Origin: Synechococcus sp. JA-3-3Ab
GTDB lineage: Bacteria; Cyanobacteriota; Cyanobacteriia; Thermostichales; Thermostichaceae
Reading direction: 5' to 3'
DNA length: 64,000 bases
NCBI RefSeq assembly: GCF_000013205.1
Contig: NC_007775.1
Span: 2,377,001-2,441,000 of the forward strand
In this document: positions 11,710 through 58,074 of the stretch, in pieces
How the letters are laid out: the number at the start of each line of letters is the position of its first letter
Position numbering within the stretch: position 1 is the first letter of the stretch
Notes under the pieces: generated by a model
Told to the model about the DNA's origin: nothing
The model's database searches: none
What the model saw: the letters and a program-made list of their open reading frames with translations, nothing else
Made by a program: the position numbers and the translations under genes

Positions 11710-12681
11710 ATGAGTCGATTCACCGCTGCTGCCGATGTAGGTTTCACCACCGAGGACTTTGCCGCCCTCTTGGATAAGTACGACTATCACTTCAGCCCTG
11801 GCGAAATTGTAGCTGGCACGGTATTTTCGGTGGAGCCGGGCGGTGCGTTGATCGATATTGGGGCCAAGACGGCTGCCTTCCTGCCTTTGCAGGAGATGTC
11901 CATCAGCCGGATAGAGGATCCGCACGAGGTGCTGCAGCCGGGAGAGACGCGCGAGTTTTTTATCCTCACCGAAGAAAATGAAGAGGGGCAACTGACCCTC
12001 TCCATCCGCCGCATCGAGTACATGCGGGCCTGGGAGCGGGTGCGGCAGCTACAAAAAGAAGACGCCACGGTGCGGGCCACCATTTTTGCCACCAACCGCG
12101 GAGGCGCCCTGGTGCGTATTGAGGGACTGCGCGGCTTTATCCCCGGCTCCCACATCAGCAGCCGCAAGCCCAAGGAAGAGCTGGTGGGCGAAGAGCTGCC
12201 CCTGAAGTTTTTGGAGGTGGACGAAGACCGCAACCGACTGGTGTTGAGCCATCGCCGCGCCCTGGTGGAGCGGAAGATGAACAAGCTGGAGGTGGGCGAG
12301 GTAGTGGTCGGCACGGTGCGCGGCATCAAGCCTTACGGTGCCTTCATCGACATTGGCGGCGTCTCTGGCTTGCTGCACATTTCCGAGATCTCCCACGAGC
12401 ATGTCGACACGCCTCACAGCGTCTTCAACGTCAACGACGAAGTGAAGGTGATGATCATCGACCTAGACGCAGAACGGGGTCGCATCTCGCTGTCTACCAA
12501 GCAACTGGAGCCCAATCCCGGCGACATGCTGCGAGATCCCAAGCTGGTTTACGAAAAAGCAGAAGAAATGGCGGCCAAGTACCGCGAGCAACTGCGGGCT
12601 GCCAAGCAAGGACAAGTCGAGGAGGCGCCGCTGGAGGTTTCGGAAGAGGAGCTGGAATACGCGGCTGCGGCGGTGGAGTAA
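11710..12681 (+). CDS. rpsA: 30S ribosomal protein S1
   Basis: The 323-residue protein has three S1 RNA-binding domains: about 31-100 (GEIVAGTVFSVEPGGALIDIG), about 115-180 (TIFATNRGGALVRIEG) and about 196-270 (GEVVVGTVRGIKPYGAFIDIGG). It has the short cyanobacterial/plastid form of S1, not the six-domain enterobacterial one. The tail is acidic. It assists mRNA binding on the small subunit. ATG 11710 gives the family N-terminus. Confidence 0.95.
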   Translation: MSRFTAAADVGFTTEDFAALLDKYDYHFSPGEIVAGTVFSVEPGGALIDIGAKTAAFLPLQEMSISRIEDPHEVLQPGETREFFILTEENEEGQLTLSIRRIEYMRAWERVRQLQKEDATVRATIFATNRGGALVRIEGLRGFIPGSHISSRKPKEELVGEELPLKFLEVDEDRNRLVLSHRRALVERKMNKLEVGEVVVGTVRGIKPYGAFIDIGGVSGLLHISEISHEHVDTPHSVFNVNDEVKVMIIDLDAERGRISLSTKQLEPNPGDMLRDPKLVYEKAEEMAAKYREQLRAAKQGQVEEAPLEVSEEELEYAAAAVE

Positions 12682-12807
12682 AGCCATCTTGCGGAGAGCC
12701 TTCGGCGGCCAAGGCTTGCCGGTTTGTCTCTCCCTTAGCCTAGCTGGGATCCCTGGCCAAGAGGGGTGTCGGGTGCGGGTACAGCAGCGGTGAGAGTTTG
12801 CTTGTCC

Positions 12808-14094
12808 ATGAGCGTTTGCGGCTACCTCTACACGCCCGCCCATGCCTCTTGGCCAGACCAGGAGCTGGCCTGGTTGAAAGCACACGGGGCCGATCCCATC
12901 TGGCACGACTGGGGATCCCGCATCCATCTGGAAGAGCTGTTGCAGGGCATTGCCGCCGGATCGGTGCAGCAGGTGCTGCTGGTGCGCCTGGCGGATCTGG
13001 GGGATCGAGTGGAGGAAGTCCACCAACGGCTATTGCAGATCCAACAAGCGGGGCTCCGCCTCAGCTTGGTCAACGAGTCCGGCCTGCACACCCCCAGCGC
13101 TGCTGCCGATTGGATCCCGCTGCTGGCCGAGCTCCCCCATCAATTGCAGAGCCGCCGCCTCTGCTGCAGCCAAGCCCAAAACCGTCTAGCGGGCAAGCCT
13201 CCCCCTGGGCCTGCCCCCTTTGGCTACCGCCGCGAAGGGGATCGCTACGCGCTGGATCGCCGCCAAGCCCCCATTGTTCAGGATTTTTTCCAGCACTTTC
13301 TTCTCTACGGATCCTTGCGCCAGGCGGTGCGCTTCATCGCTGAAAAACACCACAAGCGCATTTCGGTGGCCACCGGGCGCAACTGGCTGCTCAACCCGGT
13401 CTATCGTGGAGATCTGGCCTACGCCGACGGCACCGTTCTGCGCGATACCCACCCGGCTCTCCTCAGCCGCGCCGAGGCCGCCCAGATCGATCGCTGGCTC
13501 AAACGCAACCAAAAGATCCCGCGCCGCAGCGCCAGCGCCCCCCGCGCCTTGGCCGGCCTAGTCCATTGCCGCGTCTGCGGCAGCCTTCTGCGCATTGTGC
13601 AAACCACCCCTCGCAAGGCCAAGAAGAACGGCTCCTCCTACCTCTACCTGCGTTGCCAAACCTGTCGCTACAGCCTCCACTACGCCGCCGTTCTGCAGGA
13701 GGTGATCCGCCAAGTCTGCCAACAGCTCCCCCAGCGGGCCCAAAACCTGGATCGGCAGGCCCTGGATCAAACCCGCCAACAGCTCCAAGCCCAGATCCAA
13801 GCCAACAGCGAGCGGCTGCGACAACTGGAGGAGCTGCAGCAATCTGGACTAATGGACGAACCTGCCCTGGCCCAGCGCTGCTACCAGTTGCGGGCGGAAA
13901 CGGCCCGCTTGGCCCAAAAGCTGGAACAGCTCCCCCCCGCCAACTTCCTCCAGATTGCCCAAACTCTCTCCATCCCGCCCTTCTGGCAAGACCTCAGCGA
14001 GAGTGAGCGCCGCGCCTACCTGCGGGAATTCCTGCGCAGGGTTGAGGTGGATTCTACAGGGGCCGTGCAGATGACCTTTGCCTTCGATCCCTAA
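12808..14094 (+). CDS. Large serine recombinase-like protein with a degenerate catalytic domain
   Basis: The architecture is that of a large serine recombinase. It has an N-terminal resolvase-like domain (1-110), a recombinase domain (about 170-260, GRNWLLNPVYRGDLAY), a zinc ribbon (CRVCG...CQTC, about 257-290), a coiled coil (about 305-380) and a short C-terminal segment. The catalytic positions look lost: the usual YxRVST is YLYTPAH and the usual LDRLGR is LADLGDR. Both the nucleophilic Ser and the key Arg residues are therefore missing. It probably does not cut DNA; I infer a domesticated DNA-binding role. ATG 12808 is chosen; GTG 12766 or 12790 could extend it. It lies 126 bases after rpsA. 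Confidence 0.75.
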   Translation: MSVCGYLYTPAHASWPDQELAWLKAHGADPIWHDWGSRIHLEELLQGIAAGSVQQVLLVRLADLGDRVEEVHQRLLQIQQAGLRLSLVNESGLHTPSAAADWIPLLAELPHQLQSRRLCCSQAQNRLAGKPPPGPAPFGYRREGDRYALDRRQAPIVQDFFQHFLLYGSLRQAVRFIAEKHHKRISVATGRNWLLNPVYRGDLAYADGTVLRDTHPALLSRAEAAQIDRWLKRNQKIPRRSASAPRALAGLVHCRVCGSLLRIVQTTPRKAKKNGSSYLYLRCQTCRYSLHYAAVLQEVIRQVCQQLPQRAQNLDRQALDQTRQQLQAQIQANSERLRQLEELQQSGLMDEPALAQRCYQLRAETARLAQKLEQLPPANFLQIAQTLSIPPFWQDLSESERRAYLREFLRRVEVDSTGAVQMTFAFDP

Positions 14095-25867: not shown

Positions 25868-26461
25868 ATGGCTAGGTATGTAAAACCGAGAGAAGCGGCG
25901 GATTATTTTGGGGTGTGTCTCCACACCTTGAGGCGATGGGAACAGAAAGGCTGGATCAAAGCAATACGTACTCCATCTGGTAGGGCAAGAAGGTATGACC
26001 TCGACAGCTACATCAGAACGCCAAAGAAAGCCAAACGAGTCGTTTTGTACGCCCGAGTCAGCAGTCGAGGGCAAAAGTCAGACTTGGAGAGACAGATTGC
26101 AAGACTGGTTAACCTCTATCCTGGAGCCGAAGTGGTCGGAGAGGTTGGCGGCGGCCTCGACTTCAAAAGACCAAAGTTCCTTGCCTTATTGGAACGAGTC
26201 CGTGCAGGAGATATCGGAACGATTGTGGTCGCTCACCGGGATCGACTCTGCCGGTTTGGATTTGAGTTCGTTGAGTGGTACTGCCGTCAATACGGGTGCG
26301 AAATCTTGGTTCTCGATGACGATCACCTTTCTCCCCAACAGGAACTGGTTGAGGATATCCTCACCATCCTGCACTGCTTCAGCAGTCGGCTCTACGGACT
26401 CAGAAAATACCGGGCTGCAATCGAGAAAGATACGGATTTATCCGGAGCCAGCGCTGGCTAA
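25868..26461 (+). CDS. tnpA: IS607 TnpA, serine recombinase with MerR-type HTH
   Basis: The 197 residues have an N-terminal MerR-like helix-turn-helix (about 5-55, REAADYFGVCLHTLRRWEQ) and then a small serine recombinase domain. The catalytic Ser is in YARVSSRGQKSDLERQ near residue 63. AHRDRLCRFGFE near 122 carries the conserved Arg residues. This domain order, HTH first, is the hallmark of IS607. It differs from copy B by a Phe/Leu change near residue 134. It overlaps tnpB by about 110 bases. Confidence 0.93.
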   Translation: MARYVKPREAADYFGVCLHTLRRWEQKGWIKAIRTPSGRARRYDLDSYIRTPKKAKRVVLYARVSSRGQKSDLERQIARLVNLYPGAEVVGEVGGGLDFKRPKFLALLERVRAGDIGTIVVAHRDRLCRFGFEFVEWYCRQYGCEILVLDDDHLSPQQELVEDILTILHCFSSRLYGLRKYRAAIEKDTDLSGASAG

Positions 26462-56345: not shown

Positions 56346-57593
56346 TTACGCTGAACACTGCTGAGCATTACTGCTCAGCGGTGAAGCGATAGCATTCTGT
56401 CCGTTTCCGTTGTCACTACGCGATGCTGACGCGACCGCGCTACTCGGACGGAGTCCAAACAGAAAGGCGGTATCCCGCAAAGCTCTGAGCATAACACCCA
56501 GAGCGCCTTGCCAATCTCGTGGTAGCCTATGGTTGCACTTTGGGCATCTAAACACCTTTGCGCCACCCAACTTGGTGTGGATGTGCCCGCACTTGGTACA
56601 GGTTTTGCTGGTGTACGCTTCCGATACTTCCACGACAACCACGTTTTTCTTCTTGGCTTGAAACTTCAGGAGCTGCTTGAACCGGTAGTGCGCCCAGGTG
56701 AGCATCGCCCTTGCTGTCTTGCTACCAAACTTCCTCCCTGCCTTGGCAACCATCTTGGCTGACTCGAAAGTGGGGAGGAATATCAATCGGTAGTTATCCG
56801 TTAGGAACGCCGCTACCTTGCGATGGCACTCGTCCACCAAGTTCCTGATTCTCTCCCGCAGACGAAACGCCGCTTGCCGCATTCGCCTACGCTTGGGTCT
56901 CGGTGCTTTACTCAGCCTGGACTGCAGATCGTCTAGGTGGTAGCACAGCCGAACGATCCTGCCAAAGTCTCCCTTGGCAATATCTACAAAGCCCGCCCCA
57001 TCAAACCCTGTAAGGAAGCTTCTTACTCCAGGGTCAAGCGCAACAACCCCCTTTGCTAACGAACACTGCTCGTTCACGGGCTCAGGAAAGATGGCATACC
57101 ATCTGTCTTTCACCCGCATTAGCTCAGTTCCACGTGCCCATTCTCTGGGCATCTCCTCGGATGCGCGGAACGCCAAGCCTCGGGTGAGTTTCGGATACCA
57201 CGTCCCATTGCGAAAGTTGCCGGCGTTGAATTGCAGCGTATGCGACCTGTCTCGCACACTGCGAAACCTCGCGTCTTTGCTTCGGCGAAACGCCAACCAC
57301 GCCTCGACGACCGCGTTCTGCTTGATGTGGCAAGGGACGTCCTTCACCCACTCGGGTAGGTCGGAGCGCAGGATGATGTCCCGCAGCTTTCTGGCCGTTC
57401 TTGGAGCACCATGCTGACGCTGATAGGCAATCGCTTGGTTGTAGCAGTACCGGCACGCCGCTTGCCACCGCTTCCAAACTTTAGCCAGCGCTGGCTCCGG
57501 ATAAATCCGTATCTTTCTCGATTGCAGCCCGGTATTTTCTGAGTCCGTAGAGCCGACTGCTGAAGCAGTGCAGGATGGTGAGGATATCCTCAA
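56346..57593 (-). CDS. tnpB: IS607-associated TnpB, copy B
   Basis: Same layout as copy A, with RuvC residues in VVALDPGVRS, VVVVEVSEAYTSKTC and LPRDWQGALG and an intact zinc ribbon. Residue changes against copy A include PKTARK to PRTARK, HSDLPGW to RSDLPEW, VGECH to VDECH and KQFLKF to KQLLKF. The RuvC acids are unchanged, so both copies could be active. Start uncertain as in copy A (TTG 57593). Confidence 0.85.
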   Translation of the reverse strand: MRISSPSCTASAVGSTDSENTGLQSRKIRIYPEPALAKVWKRWQAACRYCYNQAIAYQRQHGAPRTARKLRDIILRSDLPEWVKDVPCHIKQNAVVEAWLAFRRSKDARFRSVRDRSHTLQFNAGNFRNGTWYPKLTRGLAFRASEEMPREWARGTELMRVKDRWYAIFPEPVNEQCSLAKGVVALDPGVRSFLTGFDGAGFVDIAKGDFGRIVRLCYHLDDLQSRLSKAPRPKRRRMRQAAFRLRERIRNLVDECHRKVAAFLTDNYRLIFLPTFESAKMVAKAGRKFGSKTARAMLTWAHYRFKQLLKFQAKKKNVVVVEVSEAYTSKTCTKCGHIHTKLGGAKVFRCPKCNHRLPRDWQGALGVMLRALRDTAFLFGLRPSSAVASASRSDNGNGQNAIASPLSSNAQQCSA

Positions 57594-58074
57594 CCAGTTC
57601 CTGTTGGGGAGAAAGGTGATCGTCATCGAGAACCAAGATTTCGCACCCGTATTGACGGCAGTACCACTCAACGAGCTCAAATCCAAACCGGCAGAGTCGA
57701 TCCCGGTGAGCGACCACAATTGTTCCGATATCTCCTGCACGGACTCGTTCCAATAAGGCAAGGAACTTTGGTCTTTTGAAGTCGAGACCGCCGCCAACCT
57801 CTCCGACCACTTCGGCTCCAGGATAGAGGTTAACCAGTCTTGCAATCTGTCTCTCCAAGTCTGACTTTTGCCCTCGACTGCTGACTCGGGCGTACAAAAC
57901 GACTCGTTTGGCTTTCTTTGGCGTTCTGATGTAGCTGTCGAGGTCATACCTTCTTGCCCTACCAGATGGAGTACGTATTGCTTTGATCCAGCCCTTCTGT
58001 TCCCATCGCCTCAAGGTGTGGAGACACACCCCAAAATAATCCGCCGCTTCTCTCGGTTTTACATACCTAGCCAT
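57481..58074 (-). CDS. tnpA: IS607 TnpA serine recombinase, copy B
   Basis: Matches copy A except for Phe/Leu near residue 134. The MerR-type HTH, catalytic YARVSSRGQ and HRDRLCRFG are intact. Transcribed towards the decreasing coordinates. Confidence 0.93.
   Translation of the reverse strand: MARYVKPREAADYFGVCLHTLRRWEQKGWIKAIRTPSGRARRYDLDSYIRTPKKAKRVVLYARVSSRGQKSDLERQIARLVNLYPGAEVVGEVGGGLDFKRPKFLALLERVRAGDIGTIVVAHRDRLCRFGFELVEWYCRQYGCEILVLDDDHLSPQQELVEDILTILHCFSSRLYGLRKYRAAIEKDTDLSGASAG

Follow-up and report, generated by a model that had tools for sequence, protein, structure and literature searches.

A gene that resembles those of large serine recombinases (LSRs) lies next to rps1 in the window, the 64-kb stretch of Synechococcus sp. 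JA-3-3Ab DNA that was analyzed. Its reading frame is uninterrupted from the ATG to the stop codon, and this ATG is the common start of the homologues in the genus; an in-frame GTG farther upstream (12766) is not conserved. The product has a resolvase-like N-terminal domain (NTD), a recombinase domain (RD), a zinc ribbon (ZD), and a coiled coil, and we refer to it as the non-catalytic LSR (Table 1). A terminator-like hairpin follows rps1; the count of such matches is not above chance.

Table 1. Positions in the window of the non-catalytic LSR gene, its parts, and other features discussed in the text
Feature	Positions	Strand	Remarks
rps1	11710-12681		Upstream neighbor
Terminator-like hairpin	12702-12722		After rps1
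Non-catalytic LSR-like protein	12808-14094	+	428 aa plus stop; ATG 12808, stop 14092-14094
Resolvase-like NTD, residues 1-108	12808-13131	+	Fold retained, active site lost
YLYTPAH, residues 6-12	12823-12843	+	Y-x-R-V-S in active enzymes; R8 to Y, catalytic S10 to P
LADLGDR, residues 61-67	12988-13008	+	LDRLGR in active enzymes; D67 to A, R68 to D, R71 to D
Long helix, residues 109-127	13132-13188	+	Counterpart of dimerization/minor-groove helix E (AlphaFold2 model, structure alignment)
RD (DNA-binding), residues 128-240	13189-13527	+	Strongly conserved
Basic RD-ZD linker, residues 229-250	13492-13557	+	Highest conservation within the family (mean pairwise identity, 0.76)
ZD, residues 251-292	13558-13683	+	C254, C257, C283, C286
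Coiled coil, residues 293-375	13684-13932	+	Weakly conserved (0.43)
Post-coiled-coil part, residues 376-428	13933-14091	+	Conserved FWxDLSExERRxYxREF helix; identity of 0.65 over residues 376-414
IS607-like transposase gene	26039-26413		Resolvase domain
IS607-like transposase gene	57529-57903		Resolvase domain

By both descent and fold (NTD, helix E, RD, and ZD with coiled coil), the protein belongs to the LSR superfamily. The Pfam Recombinase profile matches it above the Pfam cut-off (3.2e-07), and the Zn_ribbon_recom and Resolvase profiles match below their cut-offs; a further match, at 1e-40, is to the PHROG integrase family phrog_95. The best curated match is XisF (NCBIfam NF041201), which covers residues 18 to 416 at 142.4 bits and does not reach the equivalog cut-off of 375. 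An AlphaFold2 model, built from 37 aligned orthologues and giving the domain arrangement of a DNA-free monomer, has a mean pLDDT of 89.7. Its residues 116 to 427 align with the DNA-bound LI/A118 integrase (4kis_B; Z of 15.1 and rmsd of 5.4 Å over 280 residues), and its N-terminal 115 residues align with the catalytic domain of Sin (5c34_B; Z of 13.3 and 2.0 Å over 106 residues). The NTD, helix E, RD, ZD, and coiled coil superpose with those of phage LSRs (LI/A118, Bxb1, phiC31, and SPbeta-type), in agreement with the original prediction of a complete LSR layout. The fold of the catalytic domain is also common to the small serine recombinases Sin, gamma-delta resolvase, and Gin (Z of 10 to 13), which, unlike the non-catalytic LSR, are active and carry one small DNA-binding domain.

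The active site of this fold is lost. In an alignment with nine active cyanobacterial relatives, the two motifs named in the original prediction, YLYTPAH in place of YxRVST and LADLGDR in place of LDRLGR, fall where they had been placed, and Arg8, Ser10, Asp67, Arg68, and Arg71 are all replaced, from which the protein is predicted to be inactive as a recombinase. The loss holds for the whole family: no intact active site is found in any of the 73 rows of the orthologue alignment, which counts a few genomes twice and includes a few broken copies, and the search for orthologues with a full catalytic set, proposed as a way to overturn the prediction, thus returned none. Arg is missing from every row at the positions of both R8 and R71, and the R68 position holds Asp or Glu in 67 rows. 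Only two rows have anything other than a gap or Pro in the S10 column, and both of them also lack R8 and R71. Because the catalytic loss recurs in all sampled orthologues, chance decay is excluded.

Apart from f3 (small genomes resembling those of picocyanobacteria) and f14 (an outlying family that lacks the non-catalytic LSR), 115 of the 135 class genomes sampled have an intact, single-copy orthologue. Profile searches give one strong match per genome, in that orthologues exceed 450 bits and active paralogues stay under 120 bits, and members of the phylum outside the class give weak, paralogue-level matches only. A search with the single sequence recovered the gene in 43 of 59 relatives, a tally that counts a weak match to an active relative in G020 and a split copy in G011. 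G020 (L104), a member of f14, encodes an active-looking LSR with YARVST and LDRLGR motifs. A quick tree separates all 37 orthologues, as a single clade (SH-aLRT of 100), from the nine active sequences, and the stems of both groups are long. Searches of phages, plasmids, and viral contigs turned up no close relatives, and the phage and viral matches are remote. These results indicate that the LSRs include a genuine branch, spread across the class, that has lost catalysis. The gene is absent or broken in f7, f11, f22, f24, and parts of f13, f17, f30, and f31 and is therefore at times dispensable. The copies in G068, G109, and G196 (L118, L119, and L121) are truncated, split, or fragmented, and G184 retains a remnant with ten stops (G184:C1:1826537-1826866); these are independent losses.

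Within the genus, dN/dS (Nei-Gojobori) is 0.11 to 0.19 overall, indicating purifying selection; this agrees with the predicted selection on an intact frame, and the gene is not a recent pseudogene. The values are 0.03 to 0.12 for the RD plus linker and 0.12 to 0.33 for the NTD. Class-wide mean pairwise identity is 0.35 for the NTD, 0.62 to 0.66 for the RD, and 0.49 for the ZD, beside the values for the linker, coiled coil, and post-coiled-coil part in Table 1. Among the active relatives, the NTD is instead the most conserved part (0.36), followed by the RD (0.30), the linker (0.27), and the last part (0.25); the active set is more divergent than the orthologue set, so that the order of the domains, not the identity values, is to be compared. 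Constraint has thus shifted from the catalytic domain to the RD and the RD-ZD linker. All 73 rows retain at least four ZD cysteines, and the RD has invariant residues as well. The ZD takes the form CxxC...CxxC in this genus and in G007 and G008 (L038 and L039), and the form CxxC...C-x(5 or more)-C across most of the class.

In serine integrases, the RD, linker, and zinc ribbon touch DNA, helix E dimerizes, and the coiled coil drives synapsis. Set against these roles, the pattern of constraint suggests that DNA binding was retained, that cutting was lost, and that synapsis was relaxed. DNA binding, which the original prediction had put forward as a possible object of selection, is the most likely function judging by domain conservation, and constraint is strongest in the RD and linker. 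The conservation of the RD could instead stem from protein-protein contacts.

The neighbors of the gene are chromosomal, and the gene is not part of a phage or prophage. The adjacency to rps1 (rpsA) that had been noted exists in this window but is private to JA-3-3Ab and was seen in no related genome looked at; the rpsA synteny does not hold, and the housekeeping setting is not supported. For example, rps1 lies at 2.46 Mb and the non-catalytic LSR gene at 1.06 Mb in the congener G004, about 1.4 Mb apart. In the other five members of the genus, murQ lies 13 to 23 bp upstream of the gene (L032:10549-11478 and the same place in L033 to L036); a search of the whole JA-3-3Ab genome, run without a positive control of its own, gave no match to murQ. 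Downstream, chlL-(por)-chlN is common to the genus, G006, and G008 only, and 10 of 41 loci have a VOC-family gene immediately upstream. A conserved operon partner was rejected, as neighbors vary across cyanobacteria and none is class-wide.

Taken together, the fold and domain order, the loss of the diagnostic catalytic residues, the single clade, the single copy, the purifying selection, and the shift of constraint make it probable that this is an LSR of the XisF/phage-integrase type whose catalysis disappeared a single time, early on, and which has since been inherited vertically as a DNA-binding protein that does not cut. The single loss would have taken place no later than the common ancestor shared by most oxygenic cyanobacteria. 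A dimer would bind a specific, probably palindromic, site through helix E, the RD, and the zinc ribbon and, since it would be unable to cut DNA, would serve either in regulation or in DNA architecture (as a nucleoid or site-marking protein). Integrases usually travel with mobile DNA; this one was apparently disarmed a single time, after which most of a bacterial class, Synechococcus elongatus-like genomes among them, retained it on the chromosome as a single-copy gene. Such a history would clearly exemplify the conversion of an integrase into a DNA-binding protein and would make the protein a candidate for an unrecognized regulator or nucleoid protein of cyanobacteria. We found no mention of a family of non-catalytic LSRs in the literature that was searched, which left most subscription journals outside its reach.

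XisF, the recombinase for excision of the fdxN element in heterocystous cyanobacteria, shares domain order and phylum with the protein; however, XisF retains its active site and is carried by excisable elements, neither of which is true of the non-catalytic LSR. The phage LSRs differ likewise in that their non-catalytic counterpart lacks the Ser/Arg catalytic set, is chromosomal and vertically inherited, and is not found in phages. A partnership like that of XisF, XisH, and XisI was rejected: XisH (PF08814) was not found in the JA-3-3Ab genome, and of ten genomes sampled among the carriers of the non-catalytic LSR, nine lack XisH. The same absence weighs on the idea that the protein modulates mobile DNA by partnering, in a dominant-negative or regulatory manner, with active serine recombinases, be they those of XisF-type elements or the IS607-like transposases of JA-3-3Ab. 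The shared fold and retained helix E could permit mixed dimers, and the JA-3-3Ab genome has 20 IS607-like matches to PF00239; two of these resolvase-domain transposase genes lie in the window. However, a genome search found no other LSR (PF07508) in JA-3-3Ab, so the protein is not an accessory of a resident one, and conservation peaks in the DNA-binding parts and is lowest in the domain and coiled coil expected to mediate mixed complexes. We regard such a role as unlikely.

The lost catalytic residues, the broken copies, and the G184 remnant might also be read as signs of a decaying phage or element integrase, either a pseudogene or a recent relic. Such decay is highly improbable given the low dN/dS and its pattern among domains, the single clade across the class, and the invariant Cys and RD residues; for the family as a whole, purifying selection and class-wide retention rule it out. 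A residual or altered enzymatic activity, with the active site reinvented, would fit the conserved acidic residues (D34 and LG[DE]) that stand where basic ones were. It is very unlikely, because the family has no conserved nucleophile in its S10 column and the catalytic domain is its least conserved part.

Among candidate sites of action for a DNA-binding protein of this kind, the highly iterated palindromes (HIPs; HIP1, GCGATCGC; Elhai 2015, PMC4390886) offer a lead, with a phyletic distribution that is partly common to that of the non-catalytic LSR. The window holds 64 copies of GGGATCCC, including those at positions 12746, 12912, 14095, and 14176, compared with a single GCGATCGC; GGGATCCC is the HIP1 variant that was published for the OS types A and B of Synechococcus (PMC4390886). 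With HIP variants counted in short stretches, 124 genomes have a HIP octamer, and the gene is intact in 111 of them; among the 29 genomes that lack an octamer, it is intact in 4. This association has a P of 2.5e-15 if genomes were independent, but a P of 0.05 when collapsed by family with f3 and f14 left out, and it rests on few independent events. The gene is lost or broken in the HIP-poor f30 members G184, G217, G298, and G068, whereas KaiA, which served as a check on general erosion, occurs in every one of the 53 genomes tested. G123 (L141-L142) is nearly free of HIP1 but rich in CGGCGCCG (43 observed versus 0.9 expected in 38 kb) and keeps the gene; CGGCGCCG can be regarded as an alternative HIP of that genome.

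Several lineages contradict the association. Families f24, f11, f7, and f22 and genomes G051, G094, and G144 are HIP1-rich without the gene, so that HIP1 as an obligate partner was rejected, and G041, G027, and G188 carry the gene without a strong palindrome. No DnaA C-terminal domain was found in five f34 genomes (G100, G149, G182, G188, and G220) or in G184, G217, and G298, and dnaA appears to be gone from the five tested f34 genomes and the small-genome f30 group. Loss of dnaA was rejected as a correlate of gene loss, since f34 lacks dnaA yet keeps the gene; genome reduction nevertheless remains a confounder because three of the f30 losses fall in small genomes that also lack dnaA. It is unlikely that the non-catalytic LSR acts at or with HIP sites (GCGATCGC or, in JA-3-3Ab, GGGATCCC), such as in organizing the nucleoid or in methylation-linked repair. 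A cyanobacterium-specific chromosome-organizing or repair-linked factor at HIPs or their methylated cores is slightly less probable again. If such a role were true, the protein would be the first candidate tied to HIP sites beyond methyltransferases. The zinc-ribbon type was also considered as a readout of the HIP type and rejected: G008, with HIP1, and this genus, with GGGATCCC, both have the CxxC...CxxC form.
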